From Burkholderia multivorans ATCC BAA-247 (lineage in GTDB: Bacteria; Pseudomonadota; Gammaproteobacteria; Burkholderiales; Burkholderiaceae), in NCBI RefSeq assembly GCF_000959525.1, contig NZ_CP009831.1:1178001-1242000 (forward strand): a stretch of DNA of 64,000 nucleotides. The letters are read 5' to 3'. The translations under genes were made by a program, and so were the position numbers. The stretch's first letter is position 1, and every line of letters starts with the position of its first letter. Under the pieces are notes generated by a model that was not told the DNA's origin, searched no databases, and was given only the letters and a program-made list of their open reading frames with translations. Of this stretch, positions 5,020 through 20,117 are shown piece by piece.

Positions 5020-6627
5020 TTATCGAACGATGTCGCGCTCGGTCGTTGCCTCGGCCGGTGCCGGCTCGGCCCGCTCGGCAGGTTCGGGCGGCATGATCGA
5101 AGCCGGCCGGCGCGGCGCGCCGGCGTCGACCACCGCGCGTCCGTACTGATCGTCGAAGCGCACGATGTCGTCCTCGCCGAGATAGTCGCCCGACTGCACC
5201 TCGATGATCTCGAGCGGGATGCGCCCGGGATTCTCGAGCCGGTGAACCTCGCCGACCGCGATATACGTCGATTCGTTCTCGCTGAGCAGGAACGTATCGC
5301 TGCCGCGCGTGACGCGCGCGGTGCCGCGCACGACGATCCAGTGCTCGGCGCGGTGATAGTGCATCTGCAGCGACAGCTGCTTGCCGGGTTCGACGACGAT
5401 CCGCTTCACCTGGAAGCGCTCGCCGAGATCGATCGAATCGTAATGCCCCCACGGCCGCTGCACCTTGCGGTGTTCGCTCACTTGCGGGCGCCGATCCATC
5501 TTCAGCCGCGCGACGATGTTCTTCACGCGCTGCCCGTCGTGCTTGTTCGCGACCAGCACCGCATCGGGCGTTTCGATCACGACGACGTCCTTCATGCCGA
5601 CGCACGCGACGAGGCGTCCTTCGGAGCGCACGAGACTGTCGTGCGTATCCTCGAATACGACCGTGCCGCGCGCGACGTTGCCGTGCGCGTCCTTCGGCAT
5701 GATTTCCCAGATCGCATCCCACGTGCCGACGTCGGACCAGCCGGCCGCGAGCGGCACCACGATGCCGTCGATGCCGAGCGTCGGGCTGTCCGCGAGACGC
5801 TCCATGACCGCGTAGTCGATCGAGTCGGACGGACACGCGTCGAACGCCGCCGCATCGATGCGGAAGAACGGATCGTCGGCGACGCCGGCGCGCCACGCGG
5901 CTTCGCACGCCGCATGAATCTCCGGTGCGAGCGCCTCGATCGCCTTCAGCCATACCGACGCGCGCGTGACGAAGATGCCGCTGTTCCACCAGTAGTCGCC
6001 CGATTGCAGATAGCGTTCGGCGAGCGTCGCATCGGGCTTCTCGACGAAGCGTCCGATCGCATAGCCGCCCTGACCGCCAAGGCGGCCCGCACGCGGCTCG
6101 CCGACCTGGATGTAGCCGTAGCCGGTTTCGGCCCGGCGCGGCAGCACGCCGAGCGTGACGATCGCGCCGTCCTGCGCGTAGCGTGCGGCGCGGCCGACTG
6201 CGTCCTGGAAAGCGGCGACGTCGACGATCACATGGTCGGCCGGCATCACGGCCAGCACCGGATCGTCAGCGTCCGCGCATGCGTCGAGCGCGGCGAGCGT
6301 CAGCGCCGGCGCAGTGTTGCGTGCGCTCGGCTCGAGCAGGATGCGCGCGGTACCCGCGCCGCGGCCGACGACCTGTGCGGCGCTCATGAAGCGATGCTGC
6401 TCGCCGCAGACGAGCAGCAGCCGATCGTCGAGCGATGCGTTGGCGATCCCGTTCAGCCGGCGCGCGGTGGCCGACAGCGGCGACTCGTCCGAGACCAGCT
6501 CGATCAGCTGCTTCGGATGCTGTTCGCGCGACAGCGGCCAGAGCCGCGTGCCCGAACCGCCGGCGAGAATGACGGGAAGAATGCGCGGCAGATCGGGCTG
6601 CGGCACCGGGCGGAGCGTGCGCGTCAT
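5020..6627 (-). CDS. manC: Mannose-1-phosphate guanylyltransferase / mannose-6-phosphate isomerase
   Basis: A bifunctional cytosolic enzyme of 535 residues that makes GDP-mannose. The N-terminal nucleotidyltransferase domain begins with GGSGTRLWPLSR near residue 22 and has the sugar-phosphate site FVEKPD in the middle. The C-terminal cupin domain (from about residue 375) has RPWGHYDSID and QMHYHRAEHW, the type II phosphomannose isomerase metal site. The start at 6627 gives the family N-terminus and overlaps the acetyltransferase stop by ATGA; a longer frame to 6951 would run through that gene. It probably supplies GDP-mannose for the exopolysaccharide made by the neighbouring glycosyltransferases. 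The last roughly 35 residues are an unconserved acidic/proline tail. Confidence 0.93.
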   Translation of the reverse strand: MTRTLRPVPQPDLPRILPVILAGGSGTRLWPLSREQHPKQLIELVSDESPLSATARRLNGIANASLDDRLLLVCGEQHRFMSAAQVVGRGAGTARILLEPSARNTAPALTLAALDACADADDPVLAVMPADHVIVDVAAFQDAVGRAARYAQDGAIVTLGVLPRRAETGYGYIQVGEPRAGRLGGQGGYAIGRFVEKPDATLAERYLQSGDYWWNSGIFVTRASVWLKAIEALAPEIHAACEAAWRAGVADDPFFRIDAAAFDACPSDSIDYAVMERLADSPTLGIDGIVVPLAAGWSDVGTWDAIWEIMPKDAHGNVARGTVVFEDTHDSLVRSEGRLVACVGMKDVVVIETPDAVLVANKHDGQRVKNIVARLKMDRRPQVSEHRKVQRPWGHYDSIDLGERFQVKRIVVEPGKQLSLQMHYHRAEHWIVVRGTARVTRGSDTFLLSENESTYIAVGEVHRLENPGRIPLEIIEVQSGDYLGEDDIVRFDDQYGRAVVDAGAPRRPASIMPPEPAERAEPAPAEATTERDIVR

Positions 6628-7208
6628 CGATTTGCTCCCGTGTCGGCCGGCAGGCGTTGCGGCGCGCGGCTGCCCGTGCGCGTATCGTCGTCGCCCGGCG
6701 TGGCTGCCGACACGACGCGCGACAGCAGCGTGCGCAGCGCGCCCGAGGCGCGGTCGGCCGGCCGCACCATGCCGATGAACGGCGCGCCCTGTTCGAGATA
6801 CGGGCCGTATGCCTTGCGAAAGCCGAAGCGTTTGTAGAACGCCTGGCGTGCCGCCGGCACGTGGATGCGGATCGCGGTGTCGGGCCACGCGACGTGCGCG
6901 GCCGCGAGCGCGCGCTCGACGAGCCGCTCGAGCGTGTCGTCGTCGCGGCACGCTTCGCTCGTCAGTACCTTGTCGATCACGACGTCGGGATCGATGTCGT
7001 CGCCGGGCAGGATGCGCGCGTATGCGGCGACTTCGACGCCGTCCTGCGCCGGCACACGCGCATAGACGTGCAGCGCGGCCGTGTCCTTGCCGTCGATGTC
7101 GAGATGCGTATGCGCGTCCTCGACGACGAGCACGGCGTTGCGCGCGCGCAGGATCGCATAGAGATCGACGGCGCCCAGGTGTTCGAATTCACAACAATGC
7201 CATTCCAT
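6624..7208 (-). CDS. ElaA-like GNAT N-acetyltransferase
   Basis: A 194-residue protein with a GNAT fold: VYARVPAQ and VAAYARILP strands, a hydrophobic acetyl-CoA helix region (LERLVERALAAAHVAW), and an AFYKRFGF motif near residue 145, as in ElaA. The final 40 residues are an extra, probably flexible tail. It is the upstream partner of manC, with a 4-base stop/start overlap, so translation of the two is coupled. The CRP-like palindrome at 7371-7388 lies about 165 bases upstream. Co-transcription with manC suggests acetylation of a sugar, lipid intermediate or protein of the exopolysaccharide pathway; substrate unknown. Confidence 0.7.
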   Translation of the reverse strand: MEWHCCEFEHLGAVDLYAILRARNAVLVVEDAHTHLDIDGKDTAALHVYARVPAQDGVEVAAYARILPGDDIDPDVVIDKVLTSEACRDDDTLERLVERALAAAHVAWPDTAIRIHVPAARQAFYKRFGFRKAYGPYLEQGAPFIGMVRPADRASGALRTLLSRVVSAATPGDDDTRTGSRAPQRLPADTGANR

Positions 7209-8620: not shown

Positions 8621-10012
8621 ATGAATATGCCAATAACGCGCGATAAGAACGCCGGCGGGGAGAGAGACGCGGGGCAGCGCCCGCTGATCTACTGGACGCA
8701 AGCGCCATCCGTCATGCTGCGCAAGGAACTGGCGCGCCGCGACTGGAAGGTCTCGATCGTCACGCATGCGAACGAGCTGCGCGACACCGCCGGCGAGATC
8801 ACCTGCGGCATCCTCGATCTCAGCGGCGGCCACGCCGACGCGATCGGCAGCATCGCATCGACCTGTGCCTCGATGCGCGACGTCGTGTGGGTCGCGCTCG
8901 TCGACGCCGGGCAGACGGCCTCGCCGAACGTTCGTGCGTTATTGCGCGATTATTGTTTCGACTACGTCACGCTGCCGGCCTCGCATCAGCGCATCGCCGA
9001 TACGGTCGGCCACGCGTACGGCATGGAATGCCTGTTCGCGCGCGATCGCGAACGGCTCGAATCCGACGAGCACGGCATCGTCGGCACCTGCAGCGCGATG
9101 CTGCGGCTGTTCGATACCGTGCGGCGTTTCGCGCGCACCGACGCGCCCGTGTTCGTGTTCGGTGAAACGGGAACGGGCAAGGAGCTGACGGCCGTCGCGA
9201 TTCACCGTCATTCGGAACGCCGCAACGGGCCGTTCGTCGCGGTCAACTGCGGCGCGATTCCGCCGCATCTGCTGCAGTCGGAACTGTTCGGCTACGAGCG
9301 CGGTGCGTTTACCGGCGCGAACGCGCGCAAGATCGGCTATGTCGAGGCCGCGAACGGCGGCACGCTGCTGCTCGACGAAATCGGCGATCTGCCGCACGAG
9401 AGTCAGGCGAGCCTGCTGCGATTCCTGCAGGAGCGCGCGATTCACCGGCTCGGCGGTAGCGATCCGGTGCCGGTCGACGTGCGGATCGTGTCGGCGACGC
9501 ACGTCGATCTGCGCGACGCGATGGAAGAAGGGCGCTTCCGCGCTGACTTGTTCCATCGGCTCTGCGTGATGCGGATCGACCAGCCGCCGCTGCGGGCGCG
9601 TGGCAAGGACATCGAACTGCTCGCGCATCACATGCTCGAACGTTTCCGCGGCGACGCGCGTCATCGCGTGCGCGGCTTCTCGACCGATGCCATCACGGCG
9701 CTGTACAAGCACGACTGGCCCGGCAACGTTCGCGAGCTGATCAATCGCGTGCGTCGCGCGGTCGTGATGACCGAAGGGCGCCTGATCACCGCGCGCGATC
9801 TCGAGCTCGAATACTGTCTCGATGCCGCATCGCCGTCGGTCGCCGACATGCGCAAGTCGATCGAGCGCGAGGCGATCGAAACCGCGCTGCTGCGCACGCG
9901 CGGCCGCGTCGCGGCTTCCGCGCGCGAACTCGGCGTGTCTCGCGCGACGCTGTATCGGTGGATGGAAGCCTACGGTATCGAGCGGCCGCGCGGTACCGGA
10001 TCGTCCGACTGA
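8621..10012 (+). CDS. berB: Sigma-54 activator with degenerate receiver, BerB/VpsR-like
   Basis: A 463-residue enhancer-binding protein. Residues about 21-125 form a degenerate receiver: Asp66 in ILDLSG is kept, but the acidic pair of strand 1 is absent (LIYWTQA) and strand 5 has LPAS instead of KP, so phospho-relay is doubtful. The AAA+ domain has Walker A GETGTGKE (181-188), the sigma-54 contact loop GAFTGA (228-233) and Walker B LLLDEIGD. The C-terminus (about 425-455) is a Fis-type helix-turn-helix. VpsR and BerB are c-di-GMP-responsive proteins of this design; BerB is reported to drive RpoN-dependent berA transcription and so exopolysaccharide. The symbol rests on architecture and gene order, including the sigma-54 promoter at 17732. 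Confidence 0.75.
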   Translation: MNMPITRDKNAGGERDAGQRPLIYWTQAPSVMLRKELARRDWKVSIVTHANELRDTAGEITCGILDLSGGHADAIGSIASTCASMRDVVWVALVDAGQTASPNVRALLRDYCFDYVTLPASHQRIADTVGHAYGMECLFARDRERLESDEHGIVGTCSAMLRLFDTVRRFARTDAPVFVFGETGTGKELTAVAIHRHSERRNGPFVAVNCGAIPPHLLQSELFGYERGAFTGANARKIGYVEAANGGTLLLDEIGDLPHESQASLLRFLQERAIHRLGGSDPVPVDVRIVSATHVDLRDAMEEGRFRADLFHRLCVMRIDQPPLRARGKDIELLAHHMLERFRGDARHRVRGFSTDAITALYKHDWPGNVRELINRVRRAVVMTEGRLITARDLELEYCLDAASPSVADMRKSIEREAIETALLRTRGRVAASARELGVSRATLYRWMEAYGIERPRGTGSSD

Positions 10013-10125: not shown

Positions 10126-12603
10126 TCAGCCGGCCTGCGTCGCGCGCACGGTGCGCGCGGCATTCATCGCACGGATCTCGACGACCGGCGCCGTATCGGC
10201 CGCCGCGCGTGCCGGATCGCCCTCGAGCGGCACGAGCGCGACGCGCGCGGGTGTGTCGGGCGCGAGATGGAACCAGTCGTCGCGCGGCACGAAGCCGGGC
10301 GCGTCGATCTGCACGTGGCGCGCGACGTGGCGCGTGTCGATGTCGACATGCCAGACGTCCCCGGTGCGCGACACGCAGGCCTCGAGGCCGAGCTCGCGAC
10401 GCGCGAACACGACCGGATGCGTGCGCGACGGGAAGTAGAACGCTTGCGACAGCAGGGTGCCGTCGTCCGCGCGCAGCGTCGCGACCGCGGTGTCGTGCTC
10501 GCACGGGCCGAAGCGGTACGCGTAAGTCCAGTCGAAAAACCGGCCGAGCAATTCGGCCGAGCCGAACCGCAGCGTATCGTGCGCGGCGATGCGCACCGGG
10601 CAGCCGGCACGCGCGACCGGCGTGCGGCCGTCGCGCAGCGCGACCAGCTCGACGGTCCCGGACAGCGGCGCCGGGCGCTCGTTGAGCACGTGCACGTCCA
10701 GGCCGTTCAGCCCTTCGTCGACGAGCAGCACCTGCACCGGCTGCAGCACCTGGCGCAACGCATACCATGCCGATTTCGGCCGATGCGAGGCGTCGATCAC
10801 GCCCCAGCCGGCGCCCGGCATCACGTCCTGAAACTGCCAGACGAGCGCGCCGGCGCAGCGCGACCCGTTGCGGCGCCATTCGGAATAGGTGTCGCGCATC
10901 ACGTCGGCGATCACCGCGCGCGACAGCTCGAAGTAGCGTGCCGGATCCTCGCGCCGCAGGCGATCGGGCGTCACGTCGTACAGCGTGCGCAAATAGTGGT
11001 CACGCACATCGTCGAAATCCCACGACGTGCCGGGGTCGCGCGGCACCGCCGCCTTCCAGCGCGGCTCGTGCACGCCCGGCCAGCCGAGCTCGTCGAGCAT
11101 CGCGTTGGACGGCACGTTCGCGAACGCGAGACATTCGCTCGCGAAGCGCACGTCGGCCCGGCGCGCGTCCTCGAGCGGACGCAGATACGCGCCGACGCCG
11201 TAGTAGTGCGACACGCGCTCGCGCGGCACGAACGGCAGCACGCCGCCGTCGGGCGAGTCGGAGACGTACACGACGTCCGGCCGCCGCGCGGCCGCGTGGG
11301 CGGCCAGCCGCTCGGCCGTCAGCTCGAGAAAGCGCTGTTTCGTGCCGAGCCCCGACATCGCGGCCTGCTGCGCGATCTCGCTGCCGCCGCACAGCACCGC
11401 GAGCGACGGGGACGCACGATGACGCAGCAGGAACTGATCGGCTTCGCGATCGACGACCTCGGCGAACGCCGGATCGTCGAGCGCATAGTCGAAGTTTGCA
11501 AACATGAAGTCCTGCCAGACGAGCAGCCCGAGCCGGTCGCACCATGCATGGAACGCATCGGCTTCGTAGGTCATCGTGCCGCCGACGCGAATCATGTTGA
11601 AGCCGGCGTCGCGCGCATAGCCGAGCAGACGCCGGTAGGTCGCGTCGTCCGCATGCAAGGCGAGCGGCGCGGCGCTGCTCCAGCACGCGCCGCGCGCAAA
11701 CACCGGCACGCCGTTGACGCGCAGCGCAAAGCCCTTGCCGTCCGCGCCGGCGTCGGCTTCGATCGTACGAAAACCGGTCGTGCCGAGCGGGCGGCGTTCG
11801 CCGCCGAGATGCAGCTCGACGTCGTACAGCGCGGGTTCGCCGTGCGTATGCGGCCACCAGCGCCTGACGTTCGGTATGGCGACGCTCCCGCGTACGCGGT
11901 CGGGCGCGACGCGTTCGAGCGTCGCGACGTGCTCGCCGCACGCGAGCCGCACGGCATCGTCGTCGGGCAGCGGCGATGCGAAACCGAGCTCCGCGTCGAG
12001 CCAGCCGGTGTCGCCGTCGACGCGTGCCTGCAGGTCGCGATGCACGATCACCGGGCCGAGCGTCGGATCGAGCACGTCGACCGGCCGCCACGGGCCGGTC
12101 GGCACGTAGGGCGGAAACCAGCCGGGCATGTGCCCGAGCAGCGACGTGCGCACCGCGCGCAGGCCGGCCGGTTCGGCGAGCCGCGTGCGCCAGCGTGCGC
12201 GCCGCGCCGCGCGTACCTCGCGCAGATGCGGCGCCAGCGCGCGGAAGCGGACGAAGAGCCGGTGCGCGCCGTCGAGCGAGACGGGAACATCGTGCGAGAC
12301 GAACATGCTGTACGACTGCAGGATCGGCGTGTCGTCGAGCCATACGTCGGCGAGCGTCGCGAGGCCGTGAAAGCGCAGCACGCGCGGCCCGTGACCGTGC
12401 AGTTCCGTCCGGTACCAGTGATCGCGCTCGGCGAGCGACGCGATCTCGTCGGTACGGCCCGCCAGCGCGAGCGCCTGCGCGACCGTACCGGGCACCGGTG
12501 CGTCGATCCAGCCTCGTTCGGCCGGCAGTTCGCGCGGTTCGTCCGCGGCGCCCGCGTCGGTCGTCAGCATCGACCACGCGGGCGCGGCGCCGGACCGCGT
12601 CAT
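10126..12603 (-). CDS. GH2-type glycosidase, beta-mannosidase-like
   Basis: An 825-residue protein with the GH2 beta-mannosidase order: N-terminal jelly-roll sugar-binding domain (about 1-180), an immunoglobulin-like domain, a TIM barrel (about 290-560, with NMIRVGGTMTYE and LLVWQDFMFAN) and C-terminal beta domains. The acid/base Glu409 is present in CGGSE, where family members usually have Asn before Glu, and Glu490 in ASEC fits the nucleophile. No signal peptide is visible, so it is probably cytosolic. It is the last gene of the carrier-protein operon, overlapping the DUF1839 stop by ATGA. It may trim or remodel a mannose-containing glycan; substrate unproven. Confidence 0.75.
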   Translation of the reverse strand: MTRSGAAPAWSMLTTDAGAADEPRELPAERGWIDAPVPGTVAQALALAGRTDEIASLAERDHWYRTELHGHGPRVLRFHGLATLADVWLDDTPILQSYSMFVSHDVPVSLDGAHRLFVRFRALAPHLREVRAARRARWRTRLAEPAGLRAVRTSLLGHMPGWFPPYVPTGPWRPVDVLDPTLGPVIVHRDLQARVDGDTGWLDAELGFASPLPDDDAVRLACGEHVATLERVAPDRVRGSVAIPNVRRWWPHTHGEPALYDVELHLGGERRPLGTTGFRTIEADAGADGKGFALRVNGVPVFARGACWSSAAPLALHADDATYRRLLGYARDAGFNMIRVGGTMTYEADAFHAWCDRLGLLVWQDFMFANFDYALDDPAFAEVVDREADQFLLRHRASPSLAVLCGGSEIAQQAAMSGLGTKQRFLELTAERLAAHAAARRPDVVYVSDSPDGGVLPFVPRERVSHYYGVGAYLRPLEDARRADVRFASECLAFANVPSNAMLDELGWPGVHEPRWKAAVPRDPGTSWDFDDVRDHYLRTLYDVTPDRLRREDPARYFELSRAVIADVMRDTYSEWRRNGSRCAGALVWQFQDVMPGAGWGVIDASHRPKSAWYALRQVLQPVQVLLVDEGLNGLDVHVLNERPAPLSGTVELVALRDGRTPVARAGCPVRIAAHDTLRFGSAELLGRFFDWTYAYRFGPCEHDTAVATLRADDGTLLSQAFYFPSRTHPVVFARRELGLEACVSRTGDVWHVDIDTRHVARHVQIDAPGFVPRDDWFHLAPDTPARVALVPLEGDPARAAADTAPVVEIRAMNAARTVRATQAG

Positions 12604-13655
12604 CGGCCGAGCGGCATCGCCGCCGCGTCGTGGCGTATCGGTGCGCGATGCAGCAGCGGCGGCGCGATCTGCCGCGCGCACGCGATCAGATCGTGATACG
12701 CGGCTTCGATCGCGTCGAGCGTCGCGTCGCCGCGCTCTTCCTTGCCGCGCGAACAGGCGCGCGCGAGCCGGAACTCGAGCACCATCGCTTCGGACGCGAT
12801 GCGCTCGCAGGCACTGCGGATGTCGGCGAACGGACCGATGCAGCCGTTCGCCTGCAGCCAGCGCGCGTAATGACCGAACAGCTCGAAGTTCGCGCCGAGC
12901 TGCCGGACCGAGTTGAACGAATACGCGTGAAAGCGTTCGATCGGCGCGTCGGCGAGACGCTTCGCTTCGTCGCGCAGCTGATACCGGAACGCCGCGATCG
13001 GATCGACGACCGGCAGCCGCCGCAGATGGCGCTGCAGCAGCGCGAGCGACGCTTCGCACAGCGCGCGTTCGTCGAGCGGGGGGAAGCGCCGCTTCGCACA
13101 CTCGACGTACGGCGGCAGCGTCATCGGCGATGCGTCGCCGACGAGCCCGTCGTAATCGTCGCCCTCGGCCACGTAATAGCCGCTGTTGTGGAAGTAGCCG
13201 AGCTGGCGGCGCTCGCGGTCGATCGCATCGATGCCGATCGTCGTCTTCGTGTGCTGCGCGCGATAGCTGATGCCGCGCGTATCGGGCAGGAACCACGCGT
13301 CGACTTCGACGATCATCAGATGGCCGCGCGCGACCTGCGTCTCGATGTGGCGGTCGAGCGGCTCGTAGATCGAATGCTCCTGCACGACGATGCCGTACAG
13401 CCGTTCGAGTTCGTCGAGCGGAAACTTGAAGAACGTGAACTGATCGCCCTCGAAATCGAGCGCGATCGTAAACGGCAGCGCCGCATACGGGTTCAAGCCC
13501 CACCACCGGAGCACCTCGAGCCACATGTCGACGTAGCAGTTGGTCTGCTTCCAGACCATCTCCTGGCCATGCAGCGGATGCGGCAGATAGTGGCGCGCGC
13601 GGTGGCGCACCGCGTCGAACGACGCATCCTCGCCGTCGCGGGACACGAATGTCAT
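12600..13655 (-). CDS. DUF1839 family protein
   Basis: A 351-residue protein that I recognise as DUF1839 from its start, with HYLPHPLHGQEMVWKQTNCY and then YVDMWLEVLRWWGLNP, an N-terminal region rich in Trp and aromatic residues. It has no signal peptide or transmembrane helix. The family has no established activity; a cysteine (NCY) and several His/Asp residues near the N-terminus are candidate functional residues. The start overlaps the ligase stop by ATGA, and its own stop overlaps the glycosidase start the same way. From memory, DUF1839 genes often accompany amino acid:carrier-protein ligases, so it may act on the aminoacyl-carrier protein or accept its cargo. Confidence 0.8.
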   Translation of the reverse strand: MTFVSRDGEDASFDAVRHRARHYLPHPLHGQEMVWKQTNCYVDMWLEVLRWWGLNPYAALPFTIALDFEGDQFTFFKFPLDELERLYGIVVQEHSIYEPLDRHIETQVARGHLMIVEVDAWFLPDTRGISYRAQHTKTTIGIDAIDRERRQLGYFHNSGYYVAEGDDYDGLVGDASPMTLPPYVECAKRRFPPLDERALCEASLALLQRHLRRLPVVDPIAAFRYQLRDEAKRLADAPIERFHAYSFNSVRQLGANFELFGHYARWLQANGCIGPFADIRSACERIASEAMVLEFRLARACSRGKEERGDATLDAIEAAYHDLIACARQIAPPLLHRAPIRHDAAAMPLGR

Positions 13656-14629
13656 GGCGTTCCCCACAGTACGTTGCGCACGTCGGCCGGCCATGCTTCG
13701 ATGTCGAAGCCGTGGTGGCGGAACAGCGCGAGCGTCAGGCGTTCGAGCCCGAAGCCGACGCAGCCGGTGTGCGCGACGTCGTCGGTCGCGGTGCGGATGT
13801 TCCACAGCAGGCCGAAGTGGTCCATGTGGTAGTTGAAGCTCAGGCAGGCGGTCTGCCGGCCGTCGTGTTCGATCGGGATCAGCAGCTCGAACTTGAGGTT
13901 CTGCTCGCGCTGGCTGTCGGCGACGATCTTGCCGCCGCGTCCGAAGAACGGATCGTTCGCGAGATCGATCCCGTTCGGCAGGCCCAGCGAGTCGATCATC
14001 TGCGTGCCGCGTTCGATCCACGTCTGGCGGAACGCGAGAATCTGCTCGGGCGTGCCGATCCGCACGTACTCGCGCATCCGGAACAGCTGCATGCGCGTCG
14101 GATCGAGCGACGGCTCGTGACGGAAGCAGTACGAGAACACGTCGAAGATCCGGCCGTCCGGCGGCAGCGCACCTGCACGCGCGACGACCGGGTAAATCGG
14201 GTAGCACGCGGCCGGCGTCATCACGACGTAGGTCGGCTTCTGGTTCTCGGTCCAGTCCTCGCCGCGCTCGAGGCATTGCAGCAGCCGCTGATGCTGGTGT
14301 TCGTTGCCGCCGAACGAATGCACGCTGCCCGCGAGCTGCGGAAAGCTCTTCATGTATTCGCTGCGCTCGAACTCGAGGCGGCTCATCGCGGGCGGGAAGC
14401 GCAGCACTTCCGCATGCTGGTCCGCGCCGAGGCGCGAGACGTACGCGTCGAGCGCTTCGACGACGCGCTCGAACGCTTCGCTGCGGCCGAACAGGCCCTG
14501 GATGCCGGTCGAGACCAGCAGGCCGGCATCGATCATTTCGTCGCGCAGCGGGTTCACGCCCGCGCGGTCGAGCGGCGCATCCGCGGGAACGGACGGGGCG
14601 GCGGGGGCTACGGAGAGGCGATCGTTCAC
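13652..14629 (-). CDS. Amino acid:[carrier protein] ligase (class II aaRS-like)
   Basis: A 325-residue homologue of the catalytic core of seryl-tRNA synthetase, without a tRNA-binding arm. It contains a probable zinc ligand in PAACYPIYP, a motif 2-like segment FRHEPSLDPTRMQLFRMREY and motif 3 GCVGFGLERLTLALFR. Proteins of this family (described in Bradyrhizobium and Agrobacterium) adenylate a small amino acid and load it onto the phosphopantetheine arm of a dedicated carrier protein rather than onto tRNA. The start is GTG at 14629, overlapping the preceding stop as GTGA. The carrier protein is two genes upstream in the same operon. The amino acid (glycine or alanine in known members) is not determined. 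Confidence 0.87.
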   Translation of the reverse strand: MNDRLSVAPAAPSVPADAPLDRAGVNPLRDEMIDAGLLVSTGIQGLFGRSEAFERVVEALDAYVSRLGADQHAEVLRFPPAMSRLEFERSEYMKSFPQLAGSVHSFGGNEHQHQRLLQCLERGEDWTENQKPTYVVMTPAACYPIYPVVARAGALPPDGRIFDVFSYCFRHEPSLDPTRMQLFRMREYVRIGTPEQILAFRQTWIERGTQMIDSLGLPNGIDLANDPFFGRGGKIVADSQREQNLKFELLIPIEHDGRQTACLSFNYHMDHFGLLWNIRTATDDVAHTGCVGFGLERLTLALFRHHGFDIEAWPADVRNVLWGTP

Positions 14630-15822
14630 GTGTGTTTCTCCAGCGTCGCGGGACGCAGCGCGAGCAGCAGGCTCGAAGTGTTGGTGGCGATGCGGTCGTT
14701 GTTGATCATCAGCGGCGCCGCATGCAGGTCTCGAATATGACGGCCGACGCTGAAGGGCGTGCCGTGCTTGTAGCCGGCCATCCCGCAGATCATCATCGCT
14801 TCGTGTGCGACCTGAAGCGCGGTCGTCGATACGTAGGTCTTCAGCGTGTTGATCTCGGCGGCCCATGCCATGCCGCCCGACCACGAGCGCGGCGCGCCGC
14901 TCTCGTACAGGCGCAGCACGTTGTCGACGCGCGCCTGCATTGCCTGCAGCAGCGCGAGCGATTCGGCGAGACGCCGCGACGCGGGCGACGAGGCGCCGTC
15001 GGTCTGACGCGCCTGCGCGCGGAAGAACTGGTGCGCGCGGTGGAACGCGTCGCCGGCGACGCCGATCCACACGGCGGCCCAGAGGATGTGCGACACGGGC
15101 ACCATCGTCTGTTCGGCGATCTGCGCGAACGGCACGGGCAGGCATTGCACGGTCGCGCCGTGCGCATCGAGCATGAAGCCGTTGCTGCAGGTGCCGCGCA
15201 TGCCGAGCGTGTCCCAGTCGCCGCGGCGCGCGAGCGTATAGCCGTCGCGCAGCAGCGTGACGAGCACCTGCTCCGACGCGGGCGCGTTGGCGTCGCGGCG
15301 TGCGGTGGCCAGAATGCCGTCCGCATATTCGCCGTACGAGATCGTCGGCGCGGCCTTGTGCAGCCGGAATTCGCCGCCGTCCGCTTCGAGCGCGCACTGG
15401 CTCGCGCGCAGGTTGCCGCCGACGCCGTCTTCCGACGTGGCCGACGCGAGCAGCCACTGATGGCGCACGAGCTGCTGCAGAAACAGCTTGTGCCAGCCGT
15501 GGTCGACCGCATGGTCGACGACGCACGCGACCTGGATCTGATGCATCGCGAAGACCATCGCCGACGATGCACATGCGCGACCGAGGATCGTACACGCCGA
15601 TGCGACCTCCGCGAGCGAGGCGCCGATACCGCCGAGCCGCGTCGGCACGAGCGCGCTCAGCAGGCGGCGCGAGCGCATCGCCTCGATCGCTTCGACGGGA
15701 CAGCGCGCATCGCGATCGACGGCGTCCGCGTGCTGCGCGGCGATGCGGGCGACGGCGTGCGCGGCTTCGTCGAGCCGGCCCGCGGTGTCGTCCGCTTCGA
15801 GTTCGGGAAGGATCGCGTTCAT
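14626..15822 (-). CDS. Acyl-CoA dehydrogenase homologue
   Basis: A 398-residue protein with the acyl-CoA dehydrogenase fold: an all-helical N-terminal domain, a central beta domain with a GDWDTLGMRGTCSNGF segment near residue 220, and a helical C-terminal domain. It should bind FAD. Position between a carrier protein and an aminoacyl:carrier-protein ligase suggests that its substrate is carrier-bound, perhaps an aminoacyl thioester, rather than free acyl-CoA; relatives in antibiotic pathways oxidise carrier-bound aminoacyl groups. Its start overlaps the carrier-protein stop by ATGA, and its stop overlaps the GTG start of the ligase. Confidence 0.82.
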   Translation of the reverse strand: MNAILPELEADDTAGRLDEAAHAVARIAAQHADAVDRDARCPVEAIEAMRSRRLLSALVPTRLGGIGASLAEVASACTILGRACASSAMVFAMHQIQVACVVDHAVDHGWHKLFLQQLVRHQWLLASATSEDGVGGNLRASQCALEADGGEFRLHKAAPTISYGEYADGILATARRDANAPASEQVLVTLLRDGYTLARRGDWDTLGMRGTCSNGFMLDAHGATVQCLPVPFAQIAEQTMVPVSHILWAAVWIGVAGDAFHRAHQFFRAQARQTDGASSPASRRLAESLALLQAMQARVDNVLRLYESGAPRSWSGGMAWAAEINTLKTYVSTTALQVAHEAMMICGMAGYKHGTPFSVGRHIRDLHAAPLMINNDRIATNTSSLLLALRPATLEKHT

Positions 15823-16070
15823 GCCGATTGCTCGGTGCGTTGGAGCGTACCGATCGCGTCGGCCAACGAGTCGATGCTGCGGAACAGATTGCGGTTCAGC
15901 ATCTCGTCGGGGATTTCGACGTTGAACTGTCGCTCGAGCGCGAGCATCAGCTGGATCGTGTCGAGCGACGACAGGCCCGCTTCGTAAAGATCGTCGGCGT
16001 CGCCGATCGAATCGATGGCGGCTTCGAGATGGGCGACTTGCTTGAGAACGGCTCTGATTTCGTTTTTCAC
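15819..16070 (-). CDS. Dedicated acyl/aminoacyl carrier protein
   Basis: An 83-residue phosphopantetheine carrier protein. The attachment site is in AGLSSLDT: Ser35 takes the cofactor, while the usual Asp before it is Ser34. A helix II region LMLALERQFNVEIPDE follows, as in carrier proteins. The start is set at the GTG at 16070, preceded by CGGAG with a 6-base gap; an upstream in-frame GTG would add 11 unconserved residues. It is the first gene of the five-gene unit. Bases 16071-16239 upstream should hold the operon promoter but show no recognised motif. The partner ligase two genes on should charge it with an amino acid. Confidence 0.87.
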   Translation of the reverse strand: MKNEIRAVLKQVAHLEAAIDSIGDADDLYEAGLSSLDTIQLMLALERQFNVEIPDEMLNRNLFRSIDSLADAIGTLQRTEQSA

Positions 16071-16239: not shown

Positions 16240-17028
16240 TCAAACGCGTGCCGCAGCCGGTACGCCGCTGTCGGCCGACAGGATCCGCTTCATCTCGTCG
16301 CGCACGATGGCGCGACAGCCGCACGACATCTTCTCGAGACCCTGCAGATCGGCGAGCACGATCGAGCTGCGGTATTGCCGGATCAGGCCGAGCTTCTGAA
16401 TCTCGCCGGCCGCATCGGTGACGGTCTCGCGGCGCACGCCGAGCATCTGCGCGAGCATGCTGTGCGTGACCTGAATCTCGATGCTGCGCGAGCGGTCATA
16501 GGCCAGCATGAACCATCTGCATAACTGATGTTTCAGCACGTGATGGCGGCTGCAGAACGTGATTTGCGACACCTGCGCCATCAGCAGGCGCACGCTGACG
16601 AACACCAGATGACGAATCACCGGCGATGCGTCGAACGCCGCGGCGAATGCCTGCCGGTCGAGCCGGTAGACGAAGCCGTCGCGGCAGGCGACCGCGCGGC
16701 ACGGCATCGTGCCGCTGCCGCCGATCACGTCGTCGCAGACGATGCTTTCGCTGCCGATCTCGGCGACCTCGAGCGTCATGCCGCCCGACGACACGTACTG
16801 CAGCGAGATCGCGGTCGTGACGGGCAGGTAGACGGCGGCCAGCCTGGCGCCGGGCTCGCACAGCACTTGCCCCGATTTCAGATGGACCAGTTGAAGCTGA
16901 GGAATCAGCGCTGCGCGTTCGTCGCGGTCGAGCGCGGCGAGAAACCGGTTTGCGTCGAAGCTGTGGGACAGTTCGATCATGCCGCTCGTGCGAGCGGCGC
17001 CATCACGGGCCAGATGGGTCACGGGCAT
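16240..17028 (-). CDS. Crp/Fnr family regulator
   Basis: A regulator with an N-terminal cyclic-nucleotide-binding-like beta roll (LVHLKSGQVLCEPGARLAAV to VYRLDR) and a C-terminal winged helix of the Crp type (THSMLAQMLGVRRETV as recognition region). It belongs to the same subgroup as the protein at 17920, which it resembles in the SRHHVLKHQLCRWFMLAYDR linker helix. The start is uncertain: ATG at 17028 (used) or 16980; 16980 has no good ribosome site and directly follows a GCCGCTCG-TG-CGAGCGGC palindrome. It reads away from the berA gene across an AT-rich region and towards the carrier-protein operon, so it may regulate that operon. Ligand unknown. Confidence 0.82.
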   Translation of the reverse strand: MPVTHLARDGAARTSGMIELSHSFDANRFLAALDRDERAALIPQLQLVHLKSGQVLCEPGARLAAVYLPVTTAISLQYVSSGGMTLEVAEIGSESIVCDDVIGGSGTMPCRAVACRDGFVYRLDRQAFAAAFDASPVIRHLVFVSVRLLMAQVSQITFCSRHHVLKHQLCRWFMLAYDRSRSIEIQVTHSMLAQMLGVRRETVTDAAGEIQKLGLIRQYRSSIVLADLQGLEKMSCGCRAIVRDEMKRILSADSGVPAAARV

Positions 17029-17452
17029 CCTCGATATAAGTGGGCGCACGACGTCGCGGCGGATCTCGCGCAAAGCACGTCGTGTTCGTTTAAATGGATA
17101 GGCGGATAGCGCACGAAGGCTAGCACGGCACTCAATTCCGCTAAACGCACATTACGTCATTTCACAAACTTTGACGATCCAAAAAGAATGAGAACGTTAT
17201 ATGAAATTCGATCTTGCCTTATTTAAGAATTAATCATCCGGAAATGGAATCGACCGATGTAAACGTATTCTCCTATCACCGGTTGCCAATCGCCAGACAT
17301 GAAGCATTGTGCCTCGAAAACAGAAAGACAACATCAAACACTATTTGACATTTAATTGGGGAAGGAGATCTTTCCCATTCGAATCAGGGGTTTGCGACGC
17401 ATTTGTGGGATGGCTAACAAAAGCCCTGATTAGAGCGCCGATTCAAAGATGA

Positions 17453-17731: not shown

Positions 17732-17748
17732 TTGGCACGCAAATCGCT
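17732..17748 (+). promoter_or_regulatory. Sigma-54 (-24/-12) promoter of the berA candidate
   Basis: TTGGCACGCAAATCGCT matches the RpoN consensus TTGGCACG-N4-TTGC at every conserved position except one (TCGC for TTGC). The diagnostic GG and GC dinucleotides are separated by exactly 10 bases. It is 172 bases upstream of the ATG of the Crp/Fnr gene at 17920 and reads towards it. Reported RpoN- and BerB-dependent transcription of berA in B. cenocepacia fits this site. Confidence 0.8.
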
Positions 17749-17919
17749 TATTACGACTCGCGTGTCGAACGGGGTGATTGACCGACATCGGCGGCGATAA
17801 GCCGCCAATGTCCGATCCGTGGTTGTAGGCCGCAACCGCCGATGGCGCCCGACACGCTTGACGAAAACGAATTCCGCCGACCGTCTGCATGCGGCGCGGA
17901 CAATAAGAGGGATACAGAC

Positions 17920-18702
17920 ATGCTTCATCTTCAATCGAGCTATTCGGCGAATGCCATTCTGGACGCACTGCCGGAGGAGAGCATTCGGGCGATCGCACCG
18001 CATCTCGAACTGGTCCGGGTCAAGCCCGGCATGCTGGACCGGGTCGGCGAACCGATGCGTCACGTGCATTTCCCGACGACGGCGATGATGTCGGTGCAGC
18101 ACTTGATGGAAGACGGCGCGATGGTCGAGGTGGCGGTCGTCGGCCGGGAAGGTGTGGTCGGGCTCGCGACGATGGTCGGCGGGGCGGCGGTGTCTAACCG
18201 CGTCGAGGTGCGTATCGGCGGGATGGCGTACCGCGTGCCGACCTGCGTGATGCGCACGGAATTCGAACGTTCGCCGGCGACGTACCGGCTGCTCCTCAAC
18301 TATTGTCAGGCGACGATGGCGCAGATCTCACGCAGTGCACTCTGCAATCGCCATCATTCGGTCAGCGAGCAACTGAGCCGCTGGTTGCTGCTCGCGCACG
18401 ACCGGATCGAAGGCGACGAGCTCGCCGTCACGCAGCAGACGATCGCAAACATGCTCGGCGTGCGGCGCGAAGGCGTGACGGAAGCGGCCGGCAGCCTGCA
18501 GGAGGCCGGACTGATCCGGCAGCGCCGCGGACGCATCACGGTGCTCGATCGCGGCGGTCTCGAGCGTCACGCATGCGAGTGCTACGACATGATCCGCGCC
18601 GATTATGATCGGCTGCTCGGCTCGCGCAGCGGCGCGCGCCCGATGTCGGTACGTCCGCGTCTGACGGAGGTGCGCTGCGGCGCGGCGGCACACAGCGCGT
18701 GA
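17920..18702 (+). CDS. berA: Crp/Fnr regulator, BerA candidate (c-di-GMP effector)
   Basis: A 260-residue transcription factor. The N-terminal beta roll spans about residues 20-130 (LELVRVKPGMLDRVGEP, then MAYRVPTC), joined by a long dimer helix (residues about 130-175) to a Crp-type winged helix with NMLGVRREGVTEAA near residue 190. The ATG at 17920 is chosen because AGAGG stands 9 bases upstream; an ATG at 17842 would add 26 unconserved residues. Position next to the exopolysaccharide genes, the sigma-54 promoter and the BerB candidate, together with remembered gene order, identify it as the likely BerA, a c-di-GMP-binding activator of exopolysaccharide. The WcaJ-type gene follows 11 bases later. 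Confidence 0.75.
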   Translation: MLHLQSSYSANAILDALPEESIRAIAPHLELVRVKPGMLDRVGEPMRHVHFPTTAMMSVQHLMEDGAMVEVAVVGREGVVGLATMVGGAAVSNRVEVRIGGMAYRVPTCVMRTEFERSPATYRLLLNYCQATMAQISRSALCNRHHSVSEQLSRWLLLAHDRIEGDELAVTQQTIANMLGVRREGVTEAAGSLQEAGLIRQRRGRITVLDRGGLERHACECYDMIRADYDRLLGSRSGARPMSVRPRLTEVRCGAAAHSA

Positions 18703-18713
18703 GGGCGGCGGAG

Positions 18714-20117
18714 ATGAGAGGAACGGGTGTGGCGCGCCGCGCCGGGATCGCGGCGGCCGACGTCGTGCTCGTGCTCGCCGGCGCGCTGGCTGCGCAGGCC
18801 GCGGCCGGGCTCGCATGGAGCGATCTGTCCGACGCGCGCCGCGGCGCGATCGTGTTGCTCTGCGTGCTGAGCGTCGCGCTGCTGCCGCGCGCGCTGCGCG
18901 AGACGGGCGACGGCGCAAGCGCGCGCGAACGCGAGCAGGCATTGAGCGGCACGATTGCCGCGATCGTGTGCGCGAGCGTACTGACGATCGCGACGGGCGT
19001 CTGGATCATGAATCGCGGCGGCACGATCACGATGCAGTGGATCGTCGAAACCGTGCTGGCCGCCGACGCGGCATTGCTGCTCGGCAGGGTCGCGCTGCTC
19101 GCGGTCGCGGCCAGGCGTCCCGAGGCACGCGCGCATCGGCGCCGCGTCGCGGTGGTCGGCGCGACCGGATACGGCCGCGTCGCGATCGAGCGCATGCGGC
19201 TCGCGACGCAGGGGCCGTACGTGCCCGCGTACGTGTTCGACGACGATGCGCCCGGTGCGGCCGCCGATATCGGCGGCGTGCCGGTGATCGGCGACTGGCA
19301 CACGCTGCGGCAGCGAATCCACGACGGCGAAATCGACGAGGTGTGGCTCACGCTGCCGATGTCGCACGAATGGCGGATTCAGCGGATCGTCCGCGAACTG
19401 CGCGACGAGTTCGTGCAATTGCGCCTGCTGCCCGACGTGCGTCATATGTCGATCGTCGACCGTTCCGCGACCGACGTGCTCGGCATGCCGGCGATCAATC
19501 TCGCGACGACGCCGCGCTCCGCGCCGGAGATGTGGGCGAAGTTCGCGTTCGACCGGCTGTTCGCCGCCGCGGTGCTGGTACCGCTGATGCCGCTGATGGC
19601 GGCGCTCGCGATCGCCGTCAAGCTGTCGTCGCCGGGTCCGGTGCTGTTCCGGCAGCGCCGCAAGGGGATCGACGGCCGCGAGTTCCATATCCTGAAGTTC
19701 AGGACGATGCGCGTGCATCGCGAGCAGCCCGGCGTGCTGCGGCAGGCCTCGCGCAATGACTCGCGCGTGACGCCGGTCGGCGCGTTTCTGCGCCGCACGT
19801 CGCTCGACGAGCTGCCGCAATTCTTCAACGTGCTGTTCGGCCAGATGTCGGTCGTCGGCCCGCGGCCGCATGCGATCGAGCACGACGATTTATACCGGCA
19901 GCTGATCGACTGCTACATGTACCGCTATCGCGTGCGGCCCGGCATCACCGGATGGGCGCAGGTGAACGGCTATCGCGGCGAGACGCGCAAGGTCGAGGCG
20001 ATGGCCGCGCGCGTAAAGTTCGACCTGTTCTACATGCAGAACTGGAGCTTCTGGTTCGACATGAAGATCATCCTGATGACGATCGTGCGCGGCTTCATCG
20101 GCCGCAATGCGTTCTGA
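18714..20117 (+). CDS. Undecaprenyl-phosphate sugar-1-phosphate transferase (WcaJ/PssY type)
   Basis: A 467-residue inner-membrane enzyme that starts the lipid-linked repeat unit by moving a hexose-1-phosphate onto undecaprenyl phosphate. It has hydrophobic helices in the first 130 residues, a Rossmann-like CoA-binding_3 domain (VAVVGATGYGRVAIERM near residue 145), then the bacterial sugar-transferase domain with FRQRRKGIDGREFHILKFRTM, PRPHA and the terminal RPGITGWAQVNGYRGE core. The start at 18714 follows GAGGG with good spacing; a GTG at 18699 would overlap the berA stop. Its position directly after the regulator suggests co-transcription. Glucose is the usual sugar for this type; galactose is possible. 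Confidence 0.87.
   Translation: MRGTGVARRAGIAAADVVLVLAGALAAQAAAGLAWSDLSDARRGAIVLLCVLSVALLPRALRETGDGASAREREQALSGTIAAIVCASVLTIATGVWIMNRGGTITMQWIVETVLAADAALLLGRVALLAVAARRPEARAHRRRVAVVGATGYGRVAIERMRLATQGPYVPAYVFDDDAPGAAADIGGVPVIGDWHTLRQRIHDGEIDEVWLTLPMSHEWRIQRIVRELRDEFVQLRLLPDVRHMSIVDRSATDVLGMPAINLATTPRSAPEMWAKFAFDRLFAAAVLVPLMPLMAALAIAVKLSSPGPVLFRQRRKGIDGREFHILKFRTMRVHREQPGVLRQASRNDSRVTPVGAFLRRTSLDELPQFFNVLFGQMSVVGPRPHAIEHDDLYRQLIDCYMYRYRVRPGITGWAQVNGYRGETRKVEAMAARVKFDLFYMQNWSFWFDMKIILMTIVRGFIGRNAF

Follow-up and report, generated by a model that had tools for sequence, protein, structure and literature searches.

In the butirosin pathway a carrier (BtrI), a ligase (BtrJ), a flavin oxygenase (BtrO) and a papain-fold transferase (BtrH) build an aminoacyl side chain on an aminoglycoside, the ligase and the flavoenzyme being of different families from those considered here. 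BtrH is an acyl carrier protein (ACP):aminoglycoside acyltransferase in the 2023 classification of papain-like cysteine proteinases. A note added in proof to Iyer et al. (2010; PMC2922099) predicts that an amino acid is joined by an amide bond to an amino sugar of the cell surface, with Agrobacterium Atu2574 as the predicted amide-forming enzyme and its redox partner probably catalysing a monooxygenation. The biological role of carrier aminoacylation by amino acid:[carrier protein] ligases was still called unknown in the excerpt of a 2022 review (PMC9437257). Here we describe an operon of Burkholderia multivorans ATCC BAA-247, located in a stretch of 64,000 nucleotides (contig NZ_CP009831.1, positions 1,178,001 to 1,242,000, forward strand; hereafter the window), that encodes a carrier protein (CP), an acyl-CoA-dehydrogenase-fold flavoenzyme (ACAD), an amino acid:[carrier protein] ligase, a DUF1839 protein and a GH2 glycosidase. 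We regard it as moderately probable that the operon is a carrier-protein thiotemplate that moves a modified amino acid by way of the ligase, CP, ACAD, DUF1839 and GH2 together with a hydrolase.

Results

The five genes lie on the minus strand of the window in the order CP (15819..16070; 83 aa, GTG start; PF00550 and NF005480 over cut-off), ACAD (14626..15822; Acyl-CoA_dh N and C domains), ligase (13652..14629; 325 aa, GTG start; NF005479/PRK07080), DUF1839, a putative aminoacyl transferase with a predicted papain-like fold (12600..13655; PF08893, 429.8 bits), and a beta-mannosidase-like GH2 glycosidase (10126..12603; N-terminal domain PF22666). This order, the junction overlaps (ATGA, GTGA, ATGA and ATGA) and the families assigned to all five genes in the preliminary description were borne out, the families by Pfam and curated profile matches. 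The interval given there, 12600-16070, covers CP to DUF1839 and leaves GH2, which extends to 10126, outside. The CP query had 84 residues, starting one codon earlier (16073), and the numbering of Ser36 below follows it.

The five genes are a conserved unit, beyond chance. DUF1839 was sought in one genome per species across 84,980 species, and 75 of the best 80 of 164 loci carry the complete set in unchanged order on a single strand, which rules out the free assortment that the preliminary description had named as fatal to its proposal. The intact order could not be read in the other five, three of which end at contig borders (L010, L021, L030) and two of which look degenerate; in the latter (Caballeronia sordidicola S170, L056, and Burkholderia sp. 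S171, L059) DUF1839 matches and the remaining genes are fragmentary or absent. Depending on the junction, 27 to 41 of the 75 loci show the four-base overlap, which is therefore common but not essential. The DUF1839 protein of the window is 99.4% identical to a B. multivorans protein, and Paraburkholderia ginsengisoli NBRC 100965 has two complete cassettes (L036, L049) whose DUF1839 proteins are 59% and 49% identical to that of the window. Paraburkholderia xenovorans LB400 likewise carries the cassette (L055).

An even sample of 398 Pseudomonadota genomes gave the same picture: 16 have DUF1839, and 28 have a ligase match over its cut-off (43 when E up to 1e-30 is allowed). In all 16 DUF1839 genomes, the window included, the ligase adjoins DUF1839 by coordinates (hypergeometric 2e-21, uncorrected for kinship) and all five genes stand at a single locus; a stricter open reading frame (ORF) script resolved 14 of the 15 non-window loci and missed the ligase of L141. 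Two genomes of this sample (G255, G328) have an additional second DUF1839 copy, and the ligase match of G197 contains one internal stop. The five-gene cassette was likewise present in 6/6 annotated plasmid loci, chosen from 59 matching records. The remaining 12 over-cut-off genomes hold a second type of locus, to which Bll0957 itself presumably belongs, with adjacent ACAD and ligase, no DUF1839 and no GH2 match. In five of six genomes of one genus (L144-L147, L149) the second-type ligase is followed by a protein of 290-360 aa, a possible alternative transferase, one representative of which had no Pfam match. ACAD thus accompanies the ligase in 28/28 over-cut-off genomes of the phylum sample. 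A strict rule to that effect is ruled out by L184 and L186, which have no ACAD, among the five extra ligase loci of the family sample described next (L184-L188); the weak ligase homologues of three inspected genomes (L157-L159), of 15 below cut-off, also had no adjacent ACAD. An ORF of L184 labelled DUF1839 is unsupported, as neither genome nor locus has a DUF1839 match. Among 120 Burkholderiaceae genomes (ligase limit 1e-60), 45 have DUF1839 and 47 the ligase; 42 have both, three DUF1839 only and five the ligase only, so absolute dependence between the two is ruled out. For one of the DUF1839-only genomes (G425), a limit of 1e-5 brings up a weak homologue of the ligase (113.6 bits).

The AlphaFold2 model of DUF1839 (pLDDT 84.5) shows a papain-like fold with a C-terminal helical part, as in the amide synthases CcbD, CtaG and BtrH. 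Foldseek/VIA comparison of this model matched AziU3, CtaG and CcbD, the fold of the last over about 285 residues with 13-14% identity in the structural alignment. DUF1839 is thus, judging from its modelled fold, likely to be the transferase of the cassette. Its candidate catalytic residues, Cys40, His135 and His156, are conserved in 26, 31 and 30 of 32 non-redundant sequences, and a C(T/S)H triad is predicted for DUF1839 in the 2023 classification. Searched against PDB sequences, the DUF1839 profile gave one chance-level match.

Alignment gave residue 40 for each of the 62 DUF1839 copies in the 45 Burkholderiaceae genomes that have the protein. All 42 genomes with the ligase hold at least one copy with Cys40. 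In G402, G425 and G485, which have no over-cut-off ligase and bear three genus labels, it is replaced by Arg, Ser and Ala, respectively; such a split has a chance of 7e-5 if genomes are independent, which they are not. These three genomes retain CP-ACAD-DUF1839 and an alpha/beta hydrolase (L180, L179 and L181, respectively), with no over-cut-off ligase and no GH2 seen at the loci, and apparently represent a retained but unloaded carrier system. Equal copy numbers of ligase and Cys40 DUF1839 are ruled out by G435, which has two ligases but a single DUF1839. Of the 15 genomes with two DUF1839 copies, 14 combine a copy that has Cys40 with one that does not, which suggests a division of labour or a heteromer. 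Second DUF1839 copies at L175-L178, L129, L130 and L183 lie near polysaccharide genes.

CP matches PP-binding and PRK07081 (NF005480; 138.8 bits vs a cut-off of 72), and its phosphopantetheine site, Ser36, is invariant in 21/21 aligned CPs, an alignment that left out L181 (G485), in which the residue is Pro. The nearest solved CP chains are those of Agrobacterium Atu2571, and a CP close to Atu2571 (L101; 130 bits) is found in the five-gene cassette of G253 (L133). The ligase (NF005479, PRK07080; 549.4 bits vs a cut-off of 357) belongs by its sequence to the characterised ligase family, as first proposed. Its residues 26-322 align to Bll0957 (4h2w/3mey), giving a class II synthetase core with no tRNA-binding domain, and C142, E187 and C290, which we take to be zinc ligands, are invariant in 18/18 sequences.

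The preliminary description had the aminoacyl group oxidised by the dehydrogenase homologue. ACAD does have the acyl-CoA dehydrogenase fold, and many of its residues are invariant across 25 diverse sequences. In a register taken from alignment with 3pfd, residue 373 is Ile throughout the 127 type A and 12 type B rows (in which some genes appear twice), and position 244 is Ser in 87% of type A and Ala in 67% of type B rows. These positions correspond to the two sites of the catalytic Glu in acyl-CoA dehydrogenases; Glu is not the residue kept at either of them, and oxidation by a dehydrogenase is therefore only one possibility. The best single-sequence PDB matches of ACAD are DnmZ, MsuC, TdsC and KijD3; its profile search ranks dehydrogenases first, and fold searches fail to separate monooxygenases from dehydrogenases.

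The GH2 profile matches the beta-mannosidase 5n6u (284 bits) over nearly its whole length, positions 28-811, and E409 and E490, presumably the catalytic Glu residues, are invariant in 24/24 sequences and aligned with Glu of 7op6. By a crude hydropathy index, with no dedicated predictor, none of the five proteins has a strongly hydrophobic N-terminus, so GH2 likely acts in the cytoplasm. An alpha/beta hydrolase gene comes directly after GH2 in Mycetohabitans and Azospirillum, and its product resembles a fusion of exosortase-A-associated hydrolases 2 and 1, below both cut-offs. A relative with 47% identity to the Mycetohabitans protein is encoded in the genome of the window at L240:11935-13755, about 2.2 kb ahead of position 1 of the window. 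This fusion is likely a sixth cassette member, which the preliminary description, correct on the other five, had missed. According to the excerpt of PMC3584217, the bep cluster of B. cenocepacia has a TIGR03100 hydrolase, BCAM1334, whose position suggests the same gene.

The operon sits among regulators and genes of exopolysaccharide (EPS) context. Downstream lies a BerB-like sigma-54 activator with a VpsR domain (8621..10012, plus strand; PF00158, PF20161). Upstream are two CRP/FNR-type regulators, the nearer at 16240..17073 (minus strand; PF13545, PF00027; start codon uncertain) and the other in the BerA position at 17842..18702 (plus strand; PF13545), followed by a bacterial sugar transferase (18699..20117, plus strand; PF02397, 222.7 bits). 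A family search of the window proteins placed two glycosyltransferases and ManC, a mannose-1-phosphate guanylyltransferase (5020..6951, minus strand; PF01050, PF00483), close to the window start. The flanking regulators had been described as those of a cyclic di-GMP (c-di-GMP)-controlled polysaccharide, and their positions agree with berB (BCAM1342) and berA (BCAM1349) of B. cenocepacia as given in the excerpt of PMC9684580; the operon and the nearer CRP gene therefore correspond to BCAM1343-1348, six locus tags for none of which a paper was found in the open-licence library searched. Upstream of the BerA-position regulator there is a sigma-54-like site with one mismatch (17733-17748), not significant alone, as the window has 11 matches at up to two mismatches vs 13.5 expected. 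A sigma-54 promoter for the CP operon was rejected, the gap upstream of CP having no match at up to two mismatches. Near four cassettes of family f51 (L131, L133, L135, L137) there are a class II synthetase paralogue (tRNA-synt_2) and a radical SAM protein, to our eye reminiscent of elongation factor P modification genes. Pfam lookups of chosen neighbours recognised no acceptor-making enzyme common to the cassettes.

Discussion

Gene order and linkage, the families, the predicted fold, the conserved residues and the association of Cys40 with the ligase are what the analysis shows; the chemistry of every step, the identity of amino acid and acceptor and the connection with Bep are inferred. The tRNA-synthetase-like ligase would activate a small amino acid with ATP, glycine or alanine by family precedent, and load it on CP as a thioester. 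The ACAD-fold flavoenzyme may then alter the CP-tethered aminoacyl group, by oxygenation or by an oxidation that does without the usual Glu base, and Cys40 of DUF1839 would take the acyl group from CP and pass it to an acceptor amine or, less likely, a hydroxyl, a step modelled on CcbD, with its carrier-bound proline and amino sugar. GH2 and the alpha/beta hydrolase fusion may trim or release the glycoside product in the cytoplasm. In Burkholderia the cassette would serve the c-di-GMP-regulated bep polysaccharide system, and elsewhere it could run without one nearby.

The link to polysaccharides was assessed by tblastn matches over 50 bits to eight query proteins in the fetched flanks, which give raw counts with no background rate. 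Such a match lies near 33/35 (L002-L036) and 43/45 (L037-L081) of the 80 DUF1839 loci, near 9/15 non-window cassettes of the phylum sample (10/16 loci if the second-copy locus L129 is included) and at 3/12 second-type ligase loci. In B. pseudomallei, 14 of the 18 becA-R genes are homologous to BCAM1334-1350, and a transposon mutant of becG, annotated as an ACAD gene, formed less biofilm (0.84 vs 1.25) and smooth colonies (excerpt of PMC5507470). The excerpt of PMC9040570 contained nothing on this operon under becG or becA-R.

Several observations weigh against the thiotemplate proposal or its tie to Bep. Pfam detected no BtrH_N in DUF1839, only the DUF1839 match, and hhalign against the BtrH_N set gave about 1% probability, so that no sequence kinship was found; the proposed relation of DUF1839 to the transferases is one of predicted fold. 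Copies of DUF1839 that lack the Cys occur in 18/45 genomes, in 15 beside a Cys copy and in three alone; since they are retained, the protein may also serve some purpose other than catalysis. In 7/42 genomes with the ligase (G255, G328, G434, G456, G474, G476, G494) it is the copy lacking Cys40 that adjoins the ligase, the other copy having it, which disfavours the simplest one-gene reading and favours a paired or divided role. No polysaccharide-type match was detected near 6/15 non-window phylum cassettes or near 5/6 plasmid cassettes (1/6 has one). As isolated, Bep is Gal2GlcMan, with no amino sugar and all linkages alpha (excerpt of PMC7084887), so no amine acceptor and no target for a beta-mannosidase-type GH2 is visible in it. 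The extraction used 0.3 M NaOH (same excerpt), by which ester-bound groups would have been lost and amides probably not. Finally, the PMC5507470 excerpt names three complemented mutants, of which becG is not one, and the phenotype possibly reflects polarity on downstream genes.

Three other explanations can be considered. The cassette might make a small diffusible product, an aminoacyl-glycoside or an amide resembling lincosamides or mycothiol, so that its place in a polysaccharide locus would reflect shared regulation and not chemistry. The plasmid and phylum cassettes with no polysaccharide-type match speak for this, as do the neighbours of the Azospirillum, Rhizobium and Caballeronia plasmid cassettes, which have no evident polysaccharide role, the absence of a strongly hydrophobic N-terminus by the crude index, and the membership of CcbD, and we assume of CtaG and AziU3, in antibiotic pathways. 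We nevertheless consider a diffusible product rather doubtful, in view of the matches near 33/35 and 43/45 loci, of the extra DUF1839 copies near polysaccharide genes where the rest of the cassette is absent (L175-L178, L129), and of the lack of a glycosyltransferase in the cassette. The papain-like fold and the predicted C(T/S)H triad would also suit hydrolysis. DUF1839 would then cleave the modified aminoacyl-CP as a thioesterase or peptidase and release a free oxidised amino acid with no transfer, an outcome we think unlikely.

It is very improbable, in our judgement, that CP, ACAD and DUF1839 chiefly act together as a structural or regulatory complex for making polysaccharide, to which the catalytic chain would be secondary. 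The three genomes that keep these proteins with neither an over-cut-off ligase nor Cys40, one of them also without Ser36 of CP, and the Cys-less copies kept in 18/45 genomes are in its favour, but the presence of at least one Cys40 copy in 42/42 genomes with the ligase and the many invariant ACAD residues argue against it. A fuller form of the thiotemplate proposal can be offered tentatively, as a possibility short of probable: a thiotemplate akin to lincosamide synthetase, supplied by a repurposed tRNA synthetase, would build an oxidised glycyl-type group and place it on a component of the c-di-GMP-controlled Bep system, a base-labile group lost in the NaOH extraction if an ester, with the catalytic Cys of DUF1839 confined to genomes that retain the ligase and the Cys-less sister copies acting as partner subunits.

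The carrier-loading and transfer scheme of the preliminary description thus stands as far as the conserved unit, the ligase family and a likely transferase by fold are concerned; it largely repeats, independently, the 2010 prediction, which already had a monooxygenation as the probable redox reaction. Compared with 2010, the present analysis adds that DUF1839 matches in fold an enzyme catalysing exactly this type of reaction, that Cys40 goes with the ligase, that the Glu base is missing, that the cassette has a likely sixth gene and that it also occurs where no polysaccharide-type gene was detected nearby. If DUF1839 is the transferase of the amino acid:[carrier protein] ligases, their role can be tested directly with a small set of purified proteins and a candidate class of acceptor. 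A gene set in a biofilm polysaccharide locus would gain a chemical function, and a translation enzyme, nonribosomal peptide synthetase (NRPS)-like chemistry and biofilm control would be linked.

Among known systems, Agrobacterium Atu2571/Atu2574 and Bll0957 have the ligase family and CP in common with the window operon. The partners listed for the Agrobacterium locus in the note added in proof to Iyer et al. (2010; PMC2922099), ACP, redox enzyme, the conserved ORF Atu2574 and a glycosidase, are the same set; the Burkholderia copy differs in sitting between c-di-GMP- and Bep-linked regulators and in having its sixth gene apart. Bll0957 is presumably of the kind found at the 12 second-type loci, which have neither DUF1839 nor a GH2 match. 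DltA-DltC and AlmE-AlmF-AlmG also place an amino acid on a dedicated carrier and then on an envelope molecule, with other ligase and transferase families, and none of the five cassette proteins matched a membrane acyltransferase family in Pfam or the curated profiles. The butirosin system differs in that the BtrH_N profile does not match DUF1839. CcbD/LmbD resembles DUF1839 in predicted fold, and CcbD uses an active-site Cys to pass an amino acid from its carrier to an amino sugar; its triad is Cys-His-Glu, whereas Cys-Thr/Ser-His is proposed for DUF1839, and its carrier is loaded by an NRPS-type adenylation enzyme, whereas here a tRNA-synthetase-like ligase would take that part.

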